From: Deltaproteobacteria bacterium
Lineage (GTDB): Bacteria > Myxococcota_A > Polyangia > Polyangiales > Ga0077539
Assembly (NCBI GenBank): GCA_947477565.1
Contig: CANJUR010000004.1
Coordinates: 62,001 to 126,000 of the forward strand
Direction of reading: 5' to 3'
Length of the DNA: 64,000 nucleotides
A program made the translations under genes and the position numbers. The notes under the pieces were generated by a model. It saw only the letters and a program-made list of their open reading frames with translations. It was not told the origin of the DNA and did no database searches. Shown one piece after another: positions 52,742 through 62,684 of this stretch. The stretch's first letter is position 1. Each line of letters begins with the position of its first letter.

Positions 52742-55700
52742 ATGCTCGCCTGGGTGGTCGCGGCGAGCATCCGGCACCGACTCGCGGTGCTGCTGGGCGT
52801 GGTGATTCTCGTGGTGCTGGGCGCGCGGGCCTTCGCGGCGCTGCCCATCGACGCGGTGCCCGACCTCACCAACGTGCAGGTGCAGGTGCTCACGGCGGCT
52901 CCGTCGCTCGGGGCGCTCGACGTCGAGCGGCTGGTGAGCGCGCCCGTCGAGATGGCCCTGAGCGGCATCCCCGGCGCACGAGAGCTCCGGTCGCTCTCGC
53001 GCTACGGCGTCTCCGCGGTGACCGTGGTCTTCGACGACGACGTGGACCCGCAGGTGGCGCGCAACCGCGTGAGCGAGCGCATGCCGCGTATCCGCGGAGA
53101 GGTCGCGCCGGACATCGGCGTACCGGAGATGGGGCCGCTCGCAACCGGGCTCGGGGAGATCTACCAGTTCGAAGTGCGAGGCGAGGCGATGGGCCCCATG
53201 GCACTGCGCTCGATTCTCGACTGGCAGATCGCGCCGCGGCTGCGAATGGTCCCTGGGGTCATCGACGTCAACGTCTTCGGGGGCGAACTGCGCACCTACG
53301 AGGTCACCCTAGACCCGCAGCGCATGGCCATCCGCCACGTGGCGCTCGGGGAGATCATCACCGCGCTTGAGCGCAACCACGTGGCCGTGGGCGGCGGCGC
53401 GATCCAGCGCGGACCCGAGGGGCTGCTCGTGCGGGGCGACGCGATGATTCGCTCGCTCGACGACCTCGGCGACATCGCGGTGTCCCAGCAGGGCGGCGCG
53501 CCGATCTATGTCCGCGACGTGGCGACCCCGCGGTTTGCCCCGATGCTCCGGCAGGGCGCAGCGACGCGGGACGGGCGCGGCGAGGTGGTGGTCGGCATGA
53601 CCCTGATGCTCCTCGGCGACAACTCCCGAGTGGTCTCGCGCGCGGTGGCGGACGCCGTGCGGCGCATCAACCCGACGCTCCCGGCGGGGGTGCGCATCGA
53701 CGCCTTCTACGACCGCACCACCCTGGTCGAGCGCACGCTGCAGACGGTCTCGCACAGCCTCGTGGAAGGCGGGCTGCTCGTGGTGCTCGTGCTCTTCCTC
53801 ATGCTCCGCAACCTGCGCGCGGGACTCGTGGCGGCGGCCATGATTCCGCTCTGTATGCTGGGCGCGTTTATCGGCATGCGGGCGCTCGGCATCAGCGGCA
53901 ACCTGATGAGCCTCGGGGCCATCGATTTCGGCCTCGTCGTCGATGGCGCGATCATCCTTCTAGAGAACGCCGTGCATCACCTCGCGGCTGCGAGCGCCGC
54001 CCGCGGACGACCGTTGACCCGCGGCGAGCGCGACGACGGGGTGCTGCGCGCGGCGCTCGAGGTACGCGGCGCGACGGCCTTCGGGGAGATCATCATTGCG
54101 CTGGTCTACCTGCCCGTGCTCACGCTCCAGGGGGTGGAGGGCAAGACCTTCCAACCCATGGCGCTGACGGTGCTCTTCGCACTCGCGGGAGCGTTCGTGC
54201 TTTCGCTCACTTTCGTGCCTGCGCTGGCCTCACTGCTGCTCGCGGCGGACGCCCGGGATCTCCCATCGCCCATCGTGACGGCTGCGCGCTGGGCCTACGC
54301 GCCGCTGCTGCGCGCAACGCTCCGGCGGCCCGCGGTGACGCTCGCGGTCGCCCTCGTCGCGCTGGGCGTGAGCGGGGCCCTCGCGCGAGGGCTCGGGTCG
54401 GAGTTCGTGCCGCAGCTCAACGAGGGCGCGTTTATCGTGGAGATGGTGCGGCAGCCCTCGACGAGCCTCGATGAATCCGTGCGCCAGGCGACGCTGGTCG
54501 AGCGGGTGCTGCGGCGCTTCCCGGAGGTCACCACGGTGGTCTGCAAGACCGGGCGGCCGGAGATCGCCAACGACCCGATGGGGGTCGAGCAGAGCGACGT
54601 ACTGGTGATGCTGCGACCGTGGGCGCAGACGCTTCCCGCGGCGGAGCGGGAGGCCCTGATCGCGCGCATGGAGGCGGCGCTCACCAGCGCGGTGCCGGGC
54701 GTGGCCTTCGGCTTCACGCAGCCGATCCAGATGCGAATGAACGAACTCCTGAGCGGCGTACGCGCCGACGTCGCAGTGAAGGTGTACGGCGACGACCTGC
54801 CGACGCTCGCCCGCCTCGGGGCGCAGATCGCCCGCGTCCTGCGCACGGTGCGCGGCGCGACGGACCTCCGGGCCGATCGGGTCGAGGGCATGCCGGTGCT
54901 GCGTGCGACGGTCGATCGACACGCCGCAGCGCGGCTCGGCGCGGACGCCCAGGAGGCCCTCTCGATGATCGAGGCGATCGGTGGACGCACGGTCGGAAGC
55001 GTGCTCGAGGGGCGGCAGAGGTACCCACTGCGGGTGCGGCTCCCGGCGGGGCTGCGCGACGACCTCGAAGCCCTGCGGCGCTTGCCGGTGCACATCGCGG
55101 GCGACGCAACGGTGCCGCTACGGGACGTAGCGCGGCTCGAGCTTATCGATGAGCCCGTGGTGATCAACCGGGAGTCCCTCGCGCGGAGGCTGGTGGTGCA
55201 GACCAACGTGCGCGGCCGCGATCTAGGGGGGTTCGCTGCGGAGGCGCAGCGCGCGGTGACCCGCTCGGTGCACCTTCCCCCTGGGTATCGCCTGGAGTGG
55301 GGCGGCCAGTTCGAGAACCTGGAGCGCGCGAAGCTCCGGCTGATGGTGGTGGTGCCGCTCGCTCTCGCGATGATTCTGGCGCTGCTCTACGCGTCGTTTC
55401 GCTCCGTCGGGGCGACGCTTCTGATCTTCGCCAACGTGCCCTTCGCCGCGACCGGCGGCGTGCTCGCGCTCTGGGCCCGGGGGTTGCCGCTGAGCCTCTC
55501 GGCGAGCGTGGGGTTCATCGCGCTCTTCGGCGTGGCGGTGCTCAACGGGCTCGTACTGGTCACCCAGGTGCGGCAGTTGCGCGCGGCCGGCGACTCGCTC
55601 ATCGATGCCGCGCAGGACGGCGCGCTTCGAAGGCTGCGCCCGGTACTGACGACCGCGCTGGTGGCCTCTCTCGGGTTCGTTCCAATGGCACTCACGACGG

Positions 55701-55846
55701 GTGCAGGCAGCGAGGTGCAGCGCCCGCTCGCCACGGTGGTGATCGGCGGCCTCGTCTCCTCGACTCTCCTCACCCTGCTCGTTCTGCCGACGCTCTACGC
55801 CTGGCTCGGCCGCGCGTGGGCTTCGAAGGATCCTCCCGCGGAGTAG
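52742..55846 (+). CDS. czcA: RND heavy-metal efflux pump (CzcA type)
   Basis: 1034 aa, full RND length, 12 helices and two large periplasmic loops. The helix-4 motif GAIDFGLVVDGAIILLEN (392-409) keeps Asp395 and Asp401 of the HME-RND proton relay, and LPIDAVPDLTNVQVQV near the start is the usual HME sequence. This pattern (DFG...D) matches divalent-ion Czc/Cnr/Ncc pumps rather than copper/silver CusA. It exports Zn2+, Co2+, Cd2+ or Ni2+ with CzcB and CzcC. A hairpin follows the stop. Confidence 0.93.
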   Translation: MLAWVVAASIRHRLAVLLGVVILVVLGARAFAALPIDAVPDLTNVQVQVLTAAPSLGALDVERLVSAPVEMALSGIPGARELRSLSRYGVSAVTVVFDDDVDPQVARNRVSERMPRIRGEVAPDIGVPEMGPLATGLGEIYQFEVRGEAMGPMALRSILDWQIAPRLRMVPGVIDVNVFGGELRTYEVTLDPQRMAIRHVALGEIITALERNHVAVGGGAIQRGPEGLLVRGDAMIRSLDDLGDIAVSQQGGAPIYVRDVATPRFAPMLRQGAATRDGRGEVVVGMTLMLLGDNSRVVSRAVADAVRRINPTLPAGVRIDAFYDRTTLVERTLQTVSHSLVEGGLLVVLVLFLMLRNLRAGLVAAAMIPLCMLGAFIGMRALGISGNLMSLGAIDFGLVVDGAIILLENAVHHLAAASAARGRPLTRGERDDGVLRAALEVRGATAFGEIIIALVYLPVLTLQGVEGKTFQPMALTVLFALAGAFVLSLTFVPALASLLLAADARDLPSPIVTAARWAYAPLLRATLRRPAVTLAVALVALGVSGALARGLGSEFVPQLNEGAFIVEMVRQPSTSLDESVRQATLVERVLRRFPEVTTVVCKTGRPEIANDPMGVEQSDVLVMLRPWAQTLPAAEREALIARMEAALTSAVPGVAFGFTQPIQMRMNELLSGVRADVAVKVYGDDLPTLARLGAQIARVLRTVRGATDLRADRVEGMPVLRATVDRHAAARLGADAQEALSMIEAIGGRTVGSVLEGRQRYPLRVRLPAGLRDDLEALRRLPVHIAGDATVPLRDVARLELIDEPVVINRESLARRLVVQTNVRGRDLGGFAAEAQRAVTRSVHLPPGYRLEWGGQFENLERAKLRLMVVVPLALAMILALLYASFRSVGATLLIFANVPFAATGGVLALWARGLPLSLSASVGFIALFGVAVLNGLVLVTQVRQLRAAGDSLIDAAQDGALRRLRPVLTTALVASLGFVPMALTTGAGSEVQRPLATVVIGGLVSSTLLTLLVLPTLYAWLGRAWASKDPPAE

Positions 55847-55888: not shown

Positions 55889-56818
55889 CTACCGCGTCGC
55901 GAGAACCTTCTCCCCGTGCCCCGTGAGGGATGCAACGCCGCCCGGTTCGCTGCCCGTCGGGGCAAGCATCGCCGCGTCCACCGCCCGCATCGCCTCCGCC
56001 TCAAACCCTCGAAACGCGATCGTCCGATGCGGCCGCAGCAGGGAGAGCGAATACAGCTCCTGGTAAGCTGCGAGCACCTCCGGGCTCTCACGCAGCGCCC
56101 CGAGAGCGCGCCCGACCGAGAGCGGGTACTGCGCCCTGGCCTCCGCCACGAGCGCCGCCACCTTCACGCCGGTATCGGCTTCGAGCTGCGCTGCCGCCAG
56201 CCGACCGTTCTCGTCGAGGGCTGCTTTCGCGCGCTCGAGCCGCGCGGCGATGGTGCTGAAGATGTGTCGCGACACCTCCGGGAGCAGCTTCACGTTGCGG
56301 ATAAACACCCGCTCGATCTTCAGCCCCCAGCGCGCGGTCTCTTCGGAGATGTCGTGCTGCAGACGCTCGCCCAGCTCCGTGCGATCGCTCAGAATGTGCG
56401 CGAATTCACGGTTTCCCAAGATCGACGTGGCCGCGTGCGAGACGAGGTTGTGCAGCGCATGGTCCCAGTCCGCGACGCCAAAGAGGGCCTTTGCAGGGTC
56501 GTCGATGCGAAACTCCAACCAGAGATCGACCATCAGCGTGGTGCCGCGCGCGTCGTTGACGTGCACGTCGTCGAAGAGGCGAAAGTCACGGCGCAACGAG
56601 ACCTTGCGGAGGGTCACCCAGGGAAACAGCCGCGTGGGCAGCCAGAGAAGCCCCGGCTCGCGCACCGTCCGGACGAGCCGACCGAAGCTCGTGAGCAGCA
56701 CGGCCTCCTCGTCATCGACCTCCACGGTCATCGCGCGGCCGACGGACAGAAGCAACGGGATCAACGCGAGTCCGCCCAGCACTCCGAGTACGAGGCGAAT
56801 GACTTCGGTGCTGTTCAT
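55889..56818 (-). CDS. SPFH/Band 7 membrane protein (second of a pair)
   Basis: 309 aa. One membrane helix at ~7-27. The SPFH domain (~30-220) has DEEAVLLTSFGRLVRTVREPG and LMVDLWLEFRIDD, followed by a helical EARAQYPLSVGRALGALRES region. It resembles HflK/HflC/prohibitin-like oligomeric scaffolds that organise membrane patches and proteases. It overlaps the upstream SPFH gene by ATGA (56815-56818), so the two are probably partners in one complex, as HflK-HflC are, but protease FtsH is not in the window. Confidence 0.87.
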   Translation of the reverse strand: MNSTEVIRLVLGVLGGLALIPLLLSVGRAMTVEVDDEEAVLLTSFGRLVRTVREPGLLWLPTRLFPWVTLRKVSLRRDFRLFDDVHVNDARGTTLMVDLWLEFRIDDPAKALFGVADWDHALHNLVSHAATSILGNREFAHILSDRTELGERLQHDISEETARWGLKIERVFIRNVKLLPEVSRHIFSTIAARLERAKAALDENGRLAAAQLEADTGVKVAALVAEARAQYPLSVGRALGALRESPEVLAAYQELYSLSLLRPHRTIAFRGFEAEAMRAVDAAMLAPTGSEPGGVASLTGHGEKVLATR

Positions 56819-57693
56819 GAGTGGTCCTTGACGAAGACGGCCCGGGACTCGGAGAGAACCTCGGCGCGGCGGCGATCGACGTAGTCGCGGAGGGTGCCGT
56901 CGCGATGGAGGATCGCGAGCGCTGCGCCGAGCGTGCGCACCTCGGTCTCGACGGCCTCTGCGCGGGCCCGGGCGATGGCGATGCCCTGCTCCGAGGCGAG
57001 CACCCGCTGTTCGCAGTCGGCCTGCGTGCGGAAGTAGTGCGCCTCTGCCTCGGTCTGCGCCTGAATCATCCCGTTGAGCGCCTCCGCGAGCTCGTCCGGC
57101 GGCAGGATGTCCGTGAGGTCTACGGCGTTGAAGTGCACCCCGTAGCGGTCGCCGATCTGCGTCCGGCAGAACTCCGCGATATGCCGGTTGAGGGCCACGC
57201 GCTCGCGGCGAATCAGGGCGTACGCCCCGCCGCCGGCGCTCAGGTCTGCGCGCGTGAGGTCACGGGAGGCGCTCCCCTCGGCGCGGAAGTTGGCGATCTC
57301 GTTGCGCAGCAAGCACGTGAAGAGACCAGTGATGTGCTCGATCGGAGCTCGCAGTCCAAAGAGGAATTCCTCCAGCCGCGCCACGATGGGTTGATATCGG
57401 AGAATGGAGTCGAAGCGCAGGACGGTGCCGTCCTCCGCCATCGCCATCTGTCCACCCTTCTCCCCGGAGAGATCCACCGACTGCTCCATTGTCGGCACCA
57501 TCACCACGTGTTGCCACGGGCGCTTGCGGTGCAGCCCAGGGCTGTAGGTGCGCAACGCCCCGGACGTCGCTCGCTCCACCGCCCCGAAGGTGGTGAGCAC
57601 CGCGAGGTGCCCCTCCCCGACGCGGAAGAAGCAGTGCGAGGTCACCATCGCGCCGTACAACAAGACTCCGATCATCAATCCCCAGACCATCAT
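56815..57693 (-). CDS. SPFH/Band 7 membrane protein (first of a pair)
   Basis: 292 aa. N-terminal helix 3-18, then GEGHLAVLTTFGAVERATSG, LRFDSILRYQPIVARLEEFL and FNAVDLTDILPPDELAEALN, the SPFH order; the last part (FRTQADCEQRVLASEQGIAI) is helical. Starts 36 bp after the SulP-carbonic anhydrase stop, suggesting a three-gene operon. Together with the next gene it forms a hetero-SPFH pair. Confidence 0.87.
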   Translation of the reverse strand: MMVWGLMIGVLLYGAMVTSHCFFRVGEGHLAVLTTFGAVERATSGALRTYSPGLHRKRPWQHVVMVPTMEQSVDLSGEKGGQMAMAEDGTVLRFDSILRYQPIVARLEEFLFGLRAPIEHITGLFTCLLRNEIANFRAEGSASRDLTRADLSAGGGAYALIRRERVALNRHIAEFCRTQIGDRYGVHFNAVDLTDILPPDELAEALNGMIQAQTEAEAHYFRTQADCEQRVLASEQGIAIARARAEAVETEVRTLGAALAILHRDGTLRDYVDRRRAEVLSESRAVFVKDHS

Positions 57694-57729: not shown

Positions 57730-59808
57730 TTAGAAACGTTGCGGGTCGCGCTCGGTCTGCCAGCGCTCGTCCCAGCTCGGGCCGCGGCGCTCTTCTTCCG
57801 TCGCGCGCGGCCGCACCGGGCCAGGCCCATCGGCGATCTCGCGGTACGCCGCCACGAGGCCGCGGTTGACCTCCACCACGTCTTCGTTGAACTCCCGGTG
57901 CACATCGCCGACGAGCGGGAGGCGCTCCACCGCGTCCGCCGAGTCCACGATCATCCCGTGCGGAACGAGCCGTCCGTCGGGCACCTCGACCCCCACCACG
58001 ACGGCGCCGATGCCGATGTAGCAATGCGACCCGACCACCGCGTCGTGCACCACCGCTTTGAAGCCGACGAAGGTGTCGTCGCCGATGTAGCAGGGCCCGT
58101 GCACCAGCGCGTTGTGGGCGATGGACACGTTTCGCCCGACGTAGACCGCCCAGTCCTCCCCGGCGACGGACACCCACTTGTTTTTCAGCGCATGAACCAC
58201 CACGCCGTCTTGCAGGTTGGTGTTGCTGCCGATGAAGAAGGGCGATCCCTCGTCCGCGCGCACGGAGCTACCCGCCGCGATGTGGACGTTTTCTCCCAGT
58301 ACCACGCGACCGATCACCGATGCCTGCCGGTGCACGTATGACGACGCCGTCACCAGCGCGCGGTCCCTGATCTGCGAGAGCCACTTGTGGTGCCCCGGCG
58401 ACTCGGTCTCCCCCGCCGGACGCCGGGCCTTCGCGTCGTCGCGCCCCAGCACCGCGCGAATCCCCTTCTCGCGCCGGCTGGATAGTTGCTCCTTCGCGGC
58501 GTGCTCGTGGCGATGGAGCCAGGCGTGCAGCGCGTGCAGCGCGAGGCCCGCCAGGAGGCCCGTCACGAGGTGGCCCGTGACCGTCCCGGCAGCGGTGACC
58601 ACAAACGCCGCGGCCTCGATGCGCTCCTTGCGGGCAAGCTCGACCAGGGTCTTCACATCGACGAGCCGAAAGCCCACCACGCACAGCAATCCCCCGAGCG
58701 CCGCCAGCGGAACCTGCGCGATCGTCCGCCCGAGCAACAGCACCGCCGCGGCGAGGAGAATGCCGTGCACCAGCGCCGCCAAACGGGTGCGACCGCCGCT
58801 CTGCACGTTGACGCCCGAGCGCACGATCACGCCCGTCACGGGCATCCCTTGCAGCAGTCCTACGGCCAGGTTGGCCAGGCCCTGTCCGAAGAGTTCGAGG
58901 TCGGGGTTGTGGGCCTTGAACTCCGGGGTCATGCGATCGACGGCGCGCGCCGAGAGCAGCGACTCCACCGCGGCCAGCAGGGCGAGCGGGAGCGTGGCGG
59001 TGGCGAGGTCGATCCAGCGCTCGTCGGGGATGCTCGGAAACGACGGCCGCGGAATGGCCGCGGAGACCGCCCCGACGCGCTCGATGTCCCAACGGAGATA
59101 GATCGATACGGCGGTGATGAGTCCGATGCCGACGATGGCCGCGGGGAAGCGCTTCATGTTGCGCGTCGAGCTGACGAGAAAGGCCACGAAGAGACCGCTG
59201 ACCACGGCGATCCACGAGACGTGATGCAGCCACGCGGGGCGGTGCATCATCTGGGCGAGTTCGAAGACCCGGTAGTCGAAGCCGAGCACCTCGGGAATCT
59301 GGCTGTCCAGAAGCTTGAGCCCGACGCCGGTGGTGAAGCCCGCCAGCACCGACTCCGGGACCCTCCGACCGAGGCGTCCGGCCAGCGAGAACGACAGCAC
59401 CAGCTGAATCGCCCCGATGAGAATCGCCGCTGCCGCGACGCCCGTCGCGCCGAAGCGCTGAGCCAGCGCGAGCACCATCACGTTGAGCGCCGCGGCGGGT
59501 CCGGTGACCTGCAAGCGCGCCCCGCCGAAGGCCGCCGCGATGCCACCACCGACGGCGCCCGCGATGAGGCCCGCCACCGGCGGCAGGCCGCTCGCGACGG
59601 CCAGCGCGACGTTGAGCGGCAGGGCCACGGCGGCGACCGTGAGCCCCGCGAGGAGGTCTGCCACGATGTTGGGCGAGTGGGCGACGTCCACCCAGCTTCG
59701 CCACCAGTCCGTGGCCATCCCGCGCCATGCCGCGCGGAGCGTCTCACCCAGGTGATCTCGACCGCCTGACGGAAACTTCGATGGCGTCGGGTGCGGGGCA
59801 GAGTTCAT
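57730..59808 (-). CDS. SulP-family anion transporter fused to a gamma-class carbonic anhydrase
   Basis: 692 aa from ATG 59808. Residues ~40-450 are a SulP transporter (VALAVASGLPPVAGLIAGAV, GGARLQVTGPAAALNVMVLA, GQGLANLAVGLLQGMPVTGV, RTRLAALVHGILLAAAVLLL). Instead of the usual STAS domain there is a linker and, at ~489-665, a left-handed beta-helix gamma-carbonic anhydrase. Its active-site residues align with archaeal Cam by spacing: Arg517, Glu520, Asn531, Gln533 and Asp534, Zn ligands His539, His565 and His570 (spacing 26 and 5). The proton-shuttle loop of Cam (Glu84) is absent and shorter. Most likely it moves bicarbonate and converts it to CO2 on the cytoplasmic side. The frame continues upstream to 60189, but that part is antisense to the YqiJ-like gene. 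Confidence 0.9.
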   Translation of the reverse strand: MNSAPHPTPSKFPSGGRDHLGETLRAAWRGMATDWWRSWVDVAHSPNIVADLLAGLTVAAVALPLNVALAVASGLPPVAGLIAGAVGGGIAAAFGGARLQVTGPAAALNVMVLALAQRFGATGVAAAAILIGAIQLVLSFSLAGRLGRRVPESVLAGFTTGVGLKLLDSQIPEVLGFDYRVFELAQMMHRPAWLHHVSWIAVVSGLFVAFLVSSTRNMKRFPAAIVGIGLITAVSIYLRWDIERVGAVSAAIPRPSFPSIPDERWIDLATATLPLALLAAVESLLSARAVDRMTPEFKAHNPDLELFGQGLANLAVGLLQGMPVTGVIVRSGVNVQSGGRTRLAALVHGILLAAAVLLLGRTIAQVPLAALGGLLCVVGFRLVDVKTLVELARKERIEAAAFVVTAAGTVTGHLVTGLLAGLALHALHAWLHRHEHAAKEQLSSRREKGIRAVLGRDDAKARRPAGETESPGHHKWLSQIRDRALVTASSYVHRQASVIGRVVLGENVHIAAGSSVRADEGSPFFIGSNTNLQDGVVVHALKNKWVSVAGEDWAVYVGRNVSIAHNALVHGPCYIGDDTFVGFKAVVHDAVVGSHCYIGIGAVVVGVEVPDGRLVPHGMIVDSADAVERLPLVGDVHREFNEDVVEVNRGLVAAYREIADGPGPVRPRATEEERRGPSWDERWQTERDPQRF

Positions 59809-59979
59809 CGGCGAAGCTCGTTTGCACGACGCGATCCAACGTAAATATTGTTGTTTTAGCGAGGAAGACGAGTCGCCTGGTGCGGTGGGATGTCGCACCG
59901 GCGCGCCAGCGTGCCGCATGGTCTCTCTGGGATGTTGTCCGTACGGTTTTGGTGTGGACGAGGTGATATCGTCGCGCCC
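59809..59979. promoter_or_regulatory. Divergent intergenic region of the microdomain cluster
   Basis: 171 bp between SulP-CA and the YqiJ-like gene, with an A/T-rich patch (GTAAATATTGTTGTTTTAG at 59840-59858), unusual in this GC-rich DNA and likely to hold promoters for both directions. No exact -35/-10 spacing can be set. GAGGTG at 59960-59965 lies 14 bp upstream of the GTG at 59980. Confidence 0.4.
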
Positions 59980-60825
59980 GTGCTGCACCTGCTCGACGCT
60001 GTCGTGACATTTCCGGGGGCGATGTATTCGGCGCTCCTGGGCGTCGTGGTTCTCTACTGGCTGTCGATGTTGATGGGCGCGGTAGACATCGATCTGCTCG
60101 GTGGCGCTGACCATGCCGGGGCCGACGGTGCGGCCGATGGGGCGATGCACGCCGACGGCGCCGCGGGTTCGCACGGCGGCCACGGCCACGTGGGCGACGC
60201 GGACGGCGGCGATGCGGACGGCGGCGATGCGGACGGCGGCGATGCGGGCGACGCGGACGGCGGCGTGTTGGGCGCTCTGGGCGCTCTGGGGCTGCGCAAG
60301 CTACCGATGACGGTGAGCGTGAGCTTGCTTGTGATCTGGGGGTGGCTCATCAGCGTGCTGGGGACGGTGTTGTTGGCCGAGACGGCGGCGCGGCACGTCC
60401 CGGTGGGGGTGTTTCGGGGGCTACTCTTCGCGGTGTCGCTGCTCGCTTCGTTGATGCTGGCGAGCGTGTCGGCGCGCCCGATCGCTCCGCTCTTCGTGGC
60501 CAACAAGGCATCCCGGCGCGAGCAGCTCGTGGGCAAGGTTGCGGAGGTATCCACCGGGCGGCTCGACGCGGGCTTCGGCCAGGTGCTGGTGGCCGACGGC
60601 GGGGCGGGGCTTCTGATCGACGCTCGCCACGAGGGTGGCGTGGTGTTGAAGCGCGGGGACAAGGTGATTGTCACGTCGTGGGATTCGGACAAGGGGTTCG
60701 TGCTGGTAGAGCCCCTTGATCGGTTCACGAGCGTGCGGATTGACACGGACGCGAAGGCCGAGGACGACGCGGAGAATCTCTCGGCGAAGTCCAGCGACGG
60801 CGCGGGCAAGCGGGTGCTAGGGTAG
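59980..60825 (+). CDS. YqiJ/NfeD-like membrane protein with OB-fold, flotillin partner
   Basis: 281 aa from GTG 59980. Three helices: ~16-38, ~110-135 and ~145-165. Between the first two lies an Asp/Gly/Ala/His spacer of DADGG repeats (15-bp units at 60196-60264). The C-terminal ~75 residues (QLVGKVAEVSTGRLDAGFGQ onward) form an NfeD-type OB-fold. YqiJ and NfeD1b proteins are encoded beside flotillins and act with them in membrane microdomains. Flotillin follows 62 bp later. The in-frame start 59890 would add a hydrophilic N-terminus and is less likely. Confidence 0.83.
   Translation: MLHLLDAVVTFPGAMYSALLGVVVLYWLSMLMGAVDIDLLGGADHAGADGAADGAMHADGAAGSHGGHGHVGDADGGDADGGDADGGDAGDADGGVLGALGALGLRKLPMTVSVSLLVIWGWLISVLGTVLLAETAARHVPVGVFRGLLFAVSLLASLMLASVSARPIAPLFVANKASRREQLVGKVAEVSTGRLDAGFGQVLVADGGAGLLIDARHEGGVVLKRGDKVIVTSWDSDKGFVLVEPLDRFTSVRIDTDAKAEDDAENLSAKSSDGAGKRVLG
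60196..60264 (+). repeat. In-frame 15-bp repeats (Asp-Ala-Asp-Gly-Gly)
   Basis: GACGCGGACGGCGGC and close copies occur three times plus a degenerate fourth. Period is a multiple of 3, so copy number affects only linker length. Confidence 0.85.
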
Positions 60826-60887
60826 AGGCGGTCTGGTGGGTTGCGGGCCTTCTTGGTGGCCTCGCAGGTTCGACGGAGGAGTGTCTG

Positions 60888-62684
60888 ATGGAGCAGTTGA
60901 TCCCCATCCTTGTTGCGGTGGTCGCGCTGGTTTTGCTGGCGTTCGGAGTGTTTGCGCTGCTGGCGCGATTCTACCGACAGGTCGATCAGGGCAAGGCCCT
61001 CATCGTAAACACCCTTAAAAACGAGCCGCTCGTGACGTTCACGGGCGCGATTGTCTATCCGATCATCCATCGGGCCGAGGTGATGGACATCTCGGTGAAG
61101 ACCATCGAGATCGACCGCCGCGGCAAAGAAGGGTTGATCTGCAAAGACAACATCCGCGGGGACATCAAGGTCACGTTCTTTGTGCGGGTCAACAAGACCC
61201 ACGAAGACGTGCTGAAGGTGGCGCAGGCGATTGGGTGTGTTCGCGCGAGCGACCAGGGCACTGTCGAGGGGCTCTTCGAAGCGAAGTTTGCCGAGGCGCT
61301 GAAAACCGTCGGCAAGAGGATGAACTTCGAAGACCTCTACAAAGAACGCGACCACTTCAAGGACTCGATCATCGAGATCATCGGCAAGGATCTCAACGGG
61401 TTCGTGATGGACGACTGCGCCATCGACTACCTGGAGCAGACGCCGATCGAGTCCCTCGACCAGAACAACATCATGGACGCCGAAGGGATCCGGAAGATCA
61501 CCGATCTCACGGTGACCCAGAACCTCAAGACCAACGAGCTTCGCCAGAAGGAGCGCATGGAGACCGGGTCGCAGAACCTGGCCGGCGACGAGGCGATTTT
61601 CCGCTTCGAGCAGAAGCGCTCGGAGGCCGAGGCGCGCAAGAACAAGGAGGTCTCCATCGCGCAGTCGCGTGAGCAAAACGAGGCCCAGCGCGTCGCCAAC
61701 GATGAGGCCAAGCGCACCCTGCTCGGGCAGGAGAAGAACTCCGAAGAGACCCTCGTCGCGCAGCAGACCCGTGAGCGCGGTGTGCTCGTCGCGATGAAGA
61801 GCAAGGAGCGCGAGATTGCTGTGGAGATCGAGCGCGTGGAGCGGGCGCGGCAGATGGAGGTCACCACGCGAGAGAGCGACGTGATGGCCCAGAAGATCAC
61901 CCGGCAGGCGGAGATCGAGCGACAGAAGAAGGAGATCGCCGAGGTGGTGCGCAGTCGCATCGCGGTGGACAAGACCGTCGCGGAAGAAGAGGAGCGCATC
62001 AAGGACGTGCGCGTGTTGGCGGAGGCCAACCGGCAGCGCGAGGCGATGAAGATCGGCGCGGAGGCCGAGGCGTCGCAGAACACCACGCGGCTGGTGAAGG
62101 CGGCGGAGGCGGCGGAGGAGGTCGCCCGGGCGCAGGCGCGGCAGCGGCTGGTGCTAGCGGATGCGGACCTCGAAGTGGCGGACAAGCAGTCGCGCGCGAA
62201 GGTGCGGCTGGCCGAAGGCAACCAGGCGGAGGCGGCGGCGGCGGGCCTCGCGGCGGCGCGTGTGCGCGAGGCCGACGCGAAGGCACTGGAGCTGACCGGC
62301 GCGGCGGAGGCGAGCTCGATTCGCGCGAAGATGAGCGCCGAGGCGTCGGGAATCGGCGAGAAGGCCGAGGCCATGAAGGCGCTCGACAGCGTGAGCCGCG
62401 AGCACGAGGAGTTCAGGCTGCGGCTGGAGCAGCAGAAGGTGATCGCGCTGGAGTCGATTCACGCCAAGCGGGACGTCGCCGGGGTGCAGGCGGAGGTGCT
62501 CCGCTCGGCGTTTGAACACGCGAAGATCAACATCGTGGGCGGTGACGGCGCGTTCTTCGAGCGCTTCATCCGCGCGGTGACGGTGGGCCAGTCCATCGAC
62601 GGTGCGGTCGATCAGAGCGAGGTGCTCAAGAGCCTCATGAGCCAGCTCGGGACGGTCTCCAGCGACGACGCACCCAAGGACTGA
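60888..62684 (+). CDS. Flotillin (YqiK-like) membrane-microdomain scaffold
   Basis: 598 aa. One N-terminal helix (~5-27), SPFH domain ~35-190 (DQGKALIVNTLKNEPLVTFT; KTHEDVLKVAQAIG; DYLEQTPIESLDQNNIMDA), then ~300 residues of Glu/Ala/Arg coiled coil with repeated (A/R)EA(E/A) units and a C-terminal FFERFIRAVTVGQSIDG. Flotillins assemble into large oligomers on the inner membrane and organise lipid rafts. It is third SPFH protein in 7 kb. The DNA-repair-ATPase gene starts 6 bp after its stop, so the three forward genes make one operon with the YqiJ-like gene. Confidence 0.93.
   Translation: MEQLIPILVAVVALVLLAFGVFALLARFYRQVDQGKALIVNTLKNEPLVTFTGAIVYPIIHRAEVMDISVKTIEIDRRGKEGLICKDNIRGDIKVTFFVRVNKTHEDVLKVAQAIGCVRASDQGTVEGLFEAKFAEALKTVGKRMNFEDLYKERDHFKDSIIEIIGKDLNGFVMDDCAIDYLEQTPIESLDQNNIMDAEGIRKITDLTVTQNLKTNELRQKERMETGSQNLAGDEAIFRFEQKRSEAEARKNKEVSIAQSREQNEAQRVANDEAKRTLLGQEKNSEETLVAQQTRERGVLVAMKSKEREIAVEIERVERARQMEVTTRESDVMAQKITRQAEIERQKKEIAEVVRSRIAVDKTVAEEEERIKDVRVLAEANRQREAMKIGAEAEASQNTTRLVKAAEAAEEVARAQARQRLVLADADLEVADKQSRAKVRLAEGNQAEAAAAGLAAARVREADAKALELTGAAEASSIRAKMSAEASGIGEKAEAMKALDSVSREHEEFRLRLEQQKVIALESIHAKRDVAGVQAEVLRSAFEHAKINIVGGDGAFFERFIRAVTVGQSIDGAVDQSEVLKSLMSQLGTVSSDDAPKD

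Follow-up and report, generated by a model that had tools for sequence, protein, structure and literature searches.

A SulP transporter fused to a gamma-class carbonic anhydrase domain and linked to a pair of SPFH genes in Myxococcota and Bdellovibrionota

The locus and the domains of the fusion protein

In the window (the whole stretch of 64,000 nucleotides that was analyzed), one open reading frame on the minus strand, uninterrupted from ATG to TAA and free of internal stops and frameshifts, joins a SulP anion transporter to a gamma-class carbonic anhydrase (CA). Two genes for SPFH/Band_7 proteins, here called A and B, follow on the same strand (Table 1). The start of A lies about 36 nt past the stop codon of the fusion, the A and B genes overlap by 4 nt (ATGA), and co-transcription of all three genes is inferred. 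A first-pass annotation, made from sequence alone, had claimed a 692-residue protein in which a gamma-CA replaces the STAS domain of a SulP transporter. Both parts of this claim held, the former through Pfam, NCBIfam, and PDB matches and the latter through a Pfam scan in which no STAS domain appeared. The annotation had not stated that the gene lies on the minus strand, and it had missed both the putative three-gene operon with its two SPFH proteins and the fact that in some lineages the SulP half has been replaced.

Table 1. Features of the fusion locus, with positions in the window
Feature	Position	Strand	Evidence or remark
SulP-gamma-CA fusion gene	57730-59808	minus	692 aa; first gene of the putative operon; single ORF
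SulP (SLC26) transmembrane domain, residues 50-405	58594-59661	minus	Pfam Sulfate_transp (PF00916), E 3e-58
Linker, residues 432-485, at the STAS position	58354-58515	minus	ARRP...HKWLxxIR-type motif; linker comparison and no STAS in Pfam scan
Gamma-class CA domain, residues 486-657	57838-58353	minus	NCBIfam and PDB matches; active-site census
Zinc ligands of the CA domain	H539 58192-58194; H565 58114-58116; H570 58099-58101	minus	Match to Cam/CcmM
SPFH/Band_7 protein A, HflC-like	56815-57693	minus	292 aa; second gene; Band_7 2e-15
SPFH/Band_7 protein B, stomatin/QmcA/HflK-like	55889-56818	minus	309 aa; third gene; Band_7 7e-22
Flotillin-like SPFH protein	60888-62684	plus	Band_7 2e-11; not counted in the operon

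Beside these genes lies a divergent pair (59890-62684, plus strand) consisting of a predicted membrane protein, which is NfeD-like by eye but has no Pfam match, and the flotillin-like protein, a third SPFH gene nearby. The flotillin-like gene adjoins the fusion only in the window and in four other loci (L032, L033, L034, and L051), that is, in this genus, and the pair was dropped as a candidate part of the operon because its conservation as a neighbor is limited to the genus. On the other side, a complete RND efflux protein of the AcrB/AcrD/AcrF family (52742-55846, plus strand, 2e-267) is convergent with the operon.

The N-terminal half meets the definition of the SulP/SLC26 family in its Sulfate_transp domain and SLC26 membrane fold, but not in the C-terminal STAS domain typical of that family. 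No STAS domain was found by the Pfam scan in the window fusion or in six other fusions, and one was present in all four of the non-fusion SulP relatives scanned. The PDB relatives of this half are SLC26Dg, BicA, and AtSULTR4;1, and its AF2 model, which is of high confidence, matches structures of the same three proteins (5iof, 6ki1, and 7lhv). Two of its residues, E282 and R330, show little or no variation in a 42-row alignment and align with E347 and R393 of AtSULTR4;1; BicA has an Asp at the position of E282. As both residues are common across SulP proteins generally, they leave the substrate unfixed, and no bicarbonate-specific signature was found in the SulP half.

In the C-terminal half, the Pfam scan placed a Hexapep domain at residues 555-588 and found no beta-CA domain (PF00484), and the protein does not qualify as a SulP-beta-CA fusion. 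The NCBIfam matches were to the CcmM N-terminal domain (residues 483-661, 5e-57) and to Cam-type carbonic anhydrase (residues 485-657, 6e-49), both under the curated full-family cut-offs. The CcmM score of 193.5 bits, against a curated equivalog score of 550, reflects a match to the N-terminal domain only, and membership among the CcmM carboxysome scaffolds, for which the equivalog score and Rubisco-small-subunit-like repeats are required, is not met. The first-pass annotation had proposed comparing the structure of this part with Cam and CcmM. It has PDB matches to both (CcmM 3kwc, 2e-45; Cam 1thj, 1e-41), and the strand pattern of the AF2 model fits a left-handed beta-helix, but the confidence of the model is only moderate here, and the top 50 Foldseek hits of the full fusion model were SLC26 and SLC4 transporters only, which is neutral on the CA fold. 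A lack of CA activity combined with a match to nothing but an acyltransferase hexapeptide family had been named as a refutation of the claim. The acyltransferase identity was rejected on sequence, as the CcmM and Cam scores far exceed those of the acyltransferase families and no zinc or catalytic residue is missing.

The active site was surveyed in an alignment of 61 fusions (60 non-redundant full-length loci plus the window fusion) with Cam and CcmM. Cam R59, D61, E62, N73, Q75, and D76 correspond to R517, D519, E520, N531, Q533, and D534 of the window fusion, and Cam H81, H117, H122, N195, and N202 to H539, H565, H570, N641, and N648; all 11 are retained in 61/61 fusions. The requirements for a gamma-class CA (a three-His zinc site, Arg59/Asp61/Glu62/Gln75/Asp76/Asn202, and a left-handed beta-helix) are met. 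In contrast, those for a Cam-type proton-shuttle loop are not: the Glu84 loop is shortened in the window fusion, where Glu84 is replaced by K542, and the Glu84 position holds Lys in 60 of the 61 fusions and Gln in the remaining one. The first-pass claim of a conserved Cam active site that has lost its Glu84 loop therefore held. The position of Cam Tyr200 is occupied by Glu or Asp in 54 fusions.

Complete conservation of these residues while the identity of the CA domains falls to as little as 58% argues for a functioning enzyme with an altered proton shuttle, but it is not proof, and CA activity remains inferred. Active CcmM proteins are reported to require a C-terminal disulfide (PMC5472144), and since the fusion has no cysteine after the CA helix, its CA activity could be low. 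A stand-alone homologue from the same phylum (L143) was observed to have lost several of the conserved residues.

Distribution, gene linkage, and exchange of the SulP half

Sixty further non-redundant full-length fusions were found, in Myxococcota and Bdellovibrionota. Within the genus, each of the four other genomes carries the fusion, and it also occurs in four genomes from the family and in two from different families; named carriers in Bdellovibrionota are Oligoflexus, Spirobacillus, Bacteriovorax, and Bdellovibrionaceae, and Citreicoccus inhibens M34 is a cultured carrier. Because the same single ORF occurs in the four genus mates and dozens of further genomes, the domain junction is taken as genuine, and a reading frame broken at the junction, which would have refuted the first-pass claim, was not borne out. 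Among sampled genomes, the fusion was present in 9/284 Myxococcota (in one case split over two contigs) and 12/58 of the Spirobacillus phylum, and in 0/292 Cyanobacteriota, where CcmM and SulP were present only as separate proteins. A search of plasmid records gave no full-length match. When 84,980 species genomes were scanned, 67 loci were recovered, among them 49 with a full-length one-ORF fusion and another two truncated where a contig ends; the scan required exact matches to peptide patterns of the SulP half and may have missed distant fusions, or those with a different SulP half (type 2, below), in other phyla.

Two records deserve comment. In one locus (L122, genome G336), a TGA was reported inside the matched stretch, yet a 713-aa open frame with both domains was recovered, and the TGA may fall in an extension of the match. 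A 9-Mb record assigned to Comamonas sp. KCTC 72670 (L095, BNCN01000007) has a SulP half that groups with Myxococcus vastator, and this record is probably mislabeled or contaminated.

The two downstream proteins are members of the SPFH/Band_7 family by score (A, 57.7 bits; B, 78.8 bits; gathering score, 23.6). Profile searches of the PDB matched A to HflC (3e-17), also the best match of its AF2 fold (7vhq), and B to QmcA (1e-19), stomatin (4e-19), and HflK (4e-13). Among named NCBIfam families, A and B come closest to HflC and HflK, but the curated equivalog scores are not reached (34.6 versus 134.4 bits for A against HflC and 45.9 versus 159.4 bits for B against HflK). The mean positive charge flanking the single transmembrane segment is higher after than before it (1.83 versus 0.09 in A and 1.23 versus 0.17 in B), and by this rule of thumb, the SPFH domains of A and B are inferred to be cytoplasmic, on the same side as the CA. 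HflK/C, the nearest relatives of A, have periplasmic SPFH domains, which counts against a cytoplasmic cage. Distant HflC-like/HflK-like SPFH pairs were also seen without a fusion (L211, L212, L213, and L216 in genomes G046, G129, G073, and G199), and no common transporter partner was found in the two such loci whose neighbors were scanned. None of the 15 fusion-bearing genomes searched gave an HflC match over the curated cut-off, and these lineages may have no canonical HflC or only a divergent one.

Scored over the fusion loci with enough flanking sequence, A was the next gene after the fusion on the same strand in 50/50 and A was followed by B in 46/46, the order fusion-A-B being fixed in two phyla. 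Neither A nor B was found at any of 46 control SulP loci without a CA, many of which have only ~1.5 kb of flank. Across the 284 Myxococcota genomes, SPFH B was matched at E<1e-120 in exactly the nine that carry the fusion, which span four families (f1, f12, f14, and f25); the next-best matches were a contig-edge fragment at 1e-62 and then one at 1e-36. Two sister genomes in the family of the window (G005 and G008) lack both the fusion and SPFH B. The linkage is thus strict and the co-occurrence with SPFH B exact; the associated statistics are inflated by shared ancestry. Clustering of neighboring genes identified no further conserved partner beyond A and B. One additional downstream ORF cluster, present in 20 fusion loci (e.g., L033, L042, and L077), has no counterpart in the window, is unannotated, and may be antisense or out of frame.

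Phylogenetic analysis placed the CA domains of all fusions in a single clade that excludes CcmM and Cam (96/95 support), and the SulP halves in one fully supported clade, three fusions excepted. In these type-2 fusions (L105, L106, and L139, from genomes G162, G193, and G305), the SulP half was placed elsewhere, among SulP proteins without a CA, and a single origin of the SulP half was rejected (AU p=0.007). Their CA domains fall within the fusion CA clade; the tree hints at their nesting within the type-1 clade, without significant support (AU p=0.26). The linker before the CA is similar in the type-2 fusions, its motif still recognizable and most clearly so in L105 and L106, and SPFH A and B lie downstream of all three. 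As the type-2 SulP is placed elsewhere while the CA remains in its clade behind a similar linker, the CA module has come to be joined to SulP halves of two types. This is a natural domain exchange, in which the SulP half was replaced and the CA and the SPFH pair were retained. Since members of one CA clade are attached to SulP proteins of two types, the coupling of transporter and CA appears to be selected for.

Comparison with known systems

Fusions of SulP to beta-class CAs are known (Felce and Saier 2004, as cited in PMC6458275; also cited in PMC10350532), M. tuberculosis Rv3273 being one example. They share with the present protein a SulP followed by a C-terminal CA, and a coupling of HCO3− transport to hydration has been proposed for them, but their CA belongs to an unrelated class (beta, PF00484) rather than to the gamma-class beta-helix found here. 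An SPFH pair is not mentioned in the relevant sections of those papers, a comparison that rests on the literature only, as the beta-CA loci were left unexamined. In the open-access literature searched, no description of a SulP-gamma-CA fusion or of a SulP-CA-SPFH operon was found, only SulP-beta-CA fusions. Subscription papers and protein databases lie outside this negative result, and some of them may list the domain pair without describing it. Transporter-CA fusions are therefore already known as a kind; the gamma-class version is new in the literature searched, and the operon is the surprising part.

With Cam of Methanosarcina and the N-terminal domain of CcmM, the CA half shares the fold family, the three-His zinc site, Arg59/Asp61/Glu62/Gln75/Asp76/Asn202, and ~44-47% identity. 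It differs from both in forming a separate clade, in having Lys in place of the Glu84 shuttle, and in being joined to a membrane transporter, and from CcmM in the absence of Rubisco-small-subunit-like repeats and of a carboxysome. The SulP membrane fold is shared with BicA and other SulP-STAS transporters, from which the fusion differs by lacking STAS, by its C-terminal gamma-CA, and by having Glu282 in place of the BicA Asp, which is a Na+ site.

The SPFH pair recalls HflK/HflC and QmcA/stomatin, as one of the paired genes is HflC-like and the other HflK/stomatin-like, and protein A has the single N-terminal transmembrane segment, SPFH domain, and long helix of those proteins. However, A and B fall far under the curated cut-offs, their charge pattern suggests a cytoplasmic SPFH domain, and their constant partner is the SulP-CA fusion, whereas that of HflK/HflC is FtsH. 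A further parallel is the erythrocyte, where an anion transporter, AE1 (band 3), and a stomatin-family protein, stomatin (band 7), act together (PMC5383999); a carbonic anhydrase is also part of that association. There, the transporter is an SLC4 protein, the CA is of another class, and the components are separate eukaryotic genes, as opposed to one putative operon with a covalent fusion here.

Proposed mechanism, rival explanations, and significance

We propose that the three genes encode a transporter-CA metabolon and a hetero-SPFH assembly dedicated to corralling it, a reading that we favor by a modest margin (probability of about 0.6) and in which CA activity, substrate, and caging are all inferred. 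It would operate as follows: (i) the SulP half would move an inorganic anion, most likely bicarbonate, over the inner membrane; (ii) the gamma-CA on the cytoplasmic C-terminus would interconvert HCO3− and CO2 where the transporter opens to the cytoplasm; and (iii) SPFH A and B would form a hetero-oligomeric membrane ring or dome that corrals several fusion molecules. The termini of SulP/SLC26 proteins are cytoplasmic and gamma-CAs are trimeric, so the CA would sit at this inner opening and could cluster molecules; as SLC26/SulP proteins are dimeric and the gamma-CA is expected to be trimeric, higher-order clustering is plausible. Stomatin increases HCO3−/Cl− exchange by AE1 and sits close to it (PMC5383999), stomatin forms domes around AQP1 and UT-B, and FtsH is surrounded by HflK/C (PMC12407830). 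Gene linkage is no proof of contact or caging, and the first-pass proposal that bicarbonate transport is coupled to hydration rests on good reasons but is not demonstrated, with both CA activity and the transported anion still inferred.

The genome has other CAs, namely, a stand-alone beta-CA (on another contig; the only beta-CA found) and a CamH-type gamma-CA, and no match to a RuBisCO large subunit was found in it. A carboxysome or autotrophic CO2-concentrating role was rejected for lack of a RuBisCO large subunit in this genome. Given this absence and the other CAs, the role is inferred to be probably not autotrophic: the system would supply bicarbonate/CO2 or keep pH in balance in a heterotroph. 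Moderate-score RuBisCO-large-type matches were seen in three fusion genomes of the 22 genomes searched (L108-L110, in G123, G162, and G316); these are possibly RuBisCO-like proteins.

Several other explanations need to be considered. The gamma-CA domain might not be a working enzyme but a trimerization or regulatory substitute for STAS, or a CO2/HCO3− sensor that gates the transporter. The closest sequence match is indeed the carboxysome scaffold CcmM, some CcmM N-terminal domains act, by analogy, as scaffolds, and nearly all fusions have a shortened loop that lacks Glu84. We nevertheless regard this as unlikely, as a structural domain should have lost some of the three His, Arg59, Asp61, Glu62, Gln75, Asp76, and Asn202 that all 61 fusions keep, and the stand-alone homologue L143 does lose several of them. 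An assembly or frameshift artifact fusing two adjacent genes could be suspected from the fragmented window assembly (252 contigs), but it is all but excluded by the identical fusion in four genus mates and in dozens of independent assemblies, including that of the cultured isolate.

Two further alternatives are harder to dismiss. The SulP half could carry sulfate, chloride, nitrate, or a carboxylate by HCO3− exchange or H+ symport, with the CA handling the counter-ion or buffering pH. This remains possible: E282 and R330 match AtSULTR4;1 E347/R393 and not the BicA Asp, and the close SulP relatives have no assigned substrate here. Against it, a CA fused to two SulP types most simply means that HCO3− is transported, and this alternative overlaps the metabolon reading in most of its mechanism. 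It is likewise conceivable that the SPFH pair, rather than forming an enclosure around the transporter, serves lipid organization or membrane-protein quality control (cf. HflK/C-FtsH), being merely co-regulated with it. The affinity of A and B to HflC and HflK, and the distant A/B-like pairs elsewhere without any CA, speak for this; the gene order fixed in two phyla, the exact co-occurrence across genomes, the retention of the pair after the change of SulP, and the absence of any other identifiable conserved partner (the 20-locus cluster being unannotated) speak against it.

The metabolon reading can be taken further. An SPFH cage around SulP-gamma-CA trimers would be an enclosed bicarbonate/CO2 nano-compartment in the inner membrane of a heterotroph, an extension that we would not bet on, though not by much. 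If true, bacteria would have their own version of the AE1-CA-stomatin complex, in the form of an SPFH assembly whose transporter-enzyme cargo is fixed genetically. The fusion itself represents a second, chemically unrelated solution for joining an anion transporter to a CA, and, for the stomatin/HflC-type proteins of bacteria, few of which have a known cargo, it provides a genetically fixed candidate. The long-debated transport metabolon, in which a CA is tethered to a bicarbonate transporter together with stomatin, becomes testable in a three-gene bacterial system, and the conservation of the fusion with its two SPFH genes suggests, by inference, a membrane assembly dedicated to the handling of bicarbonate.
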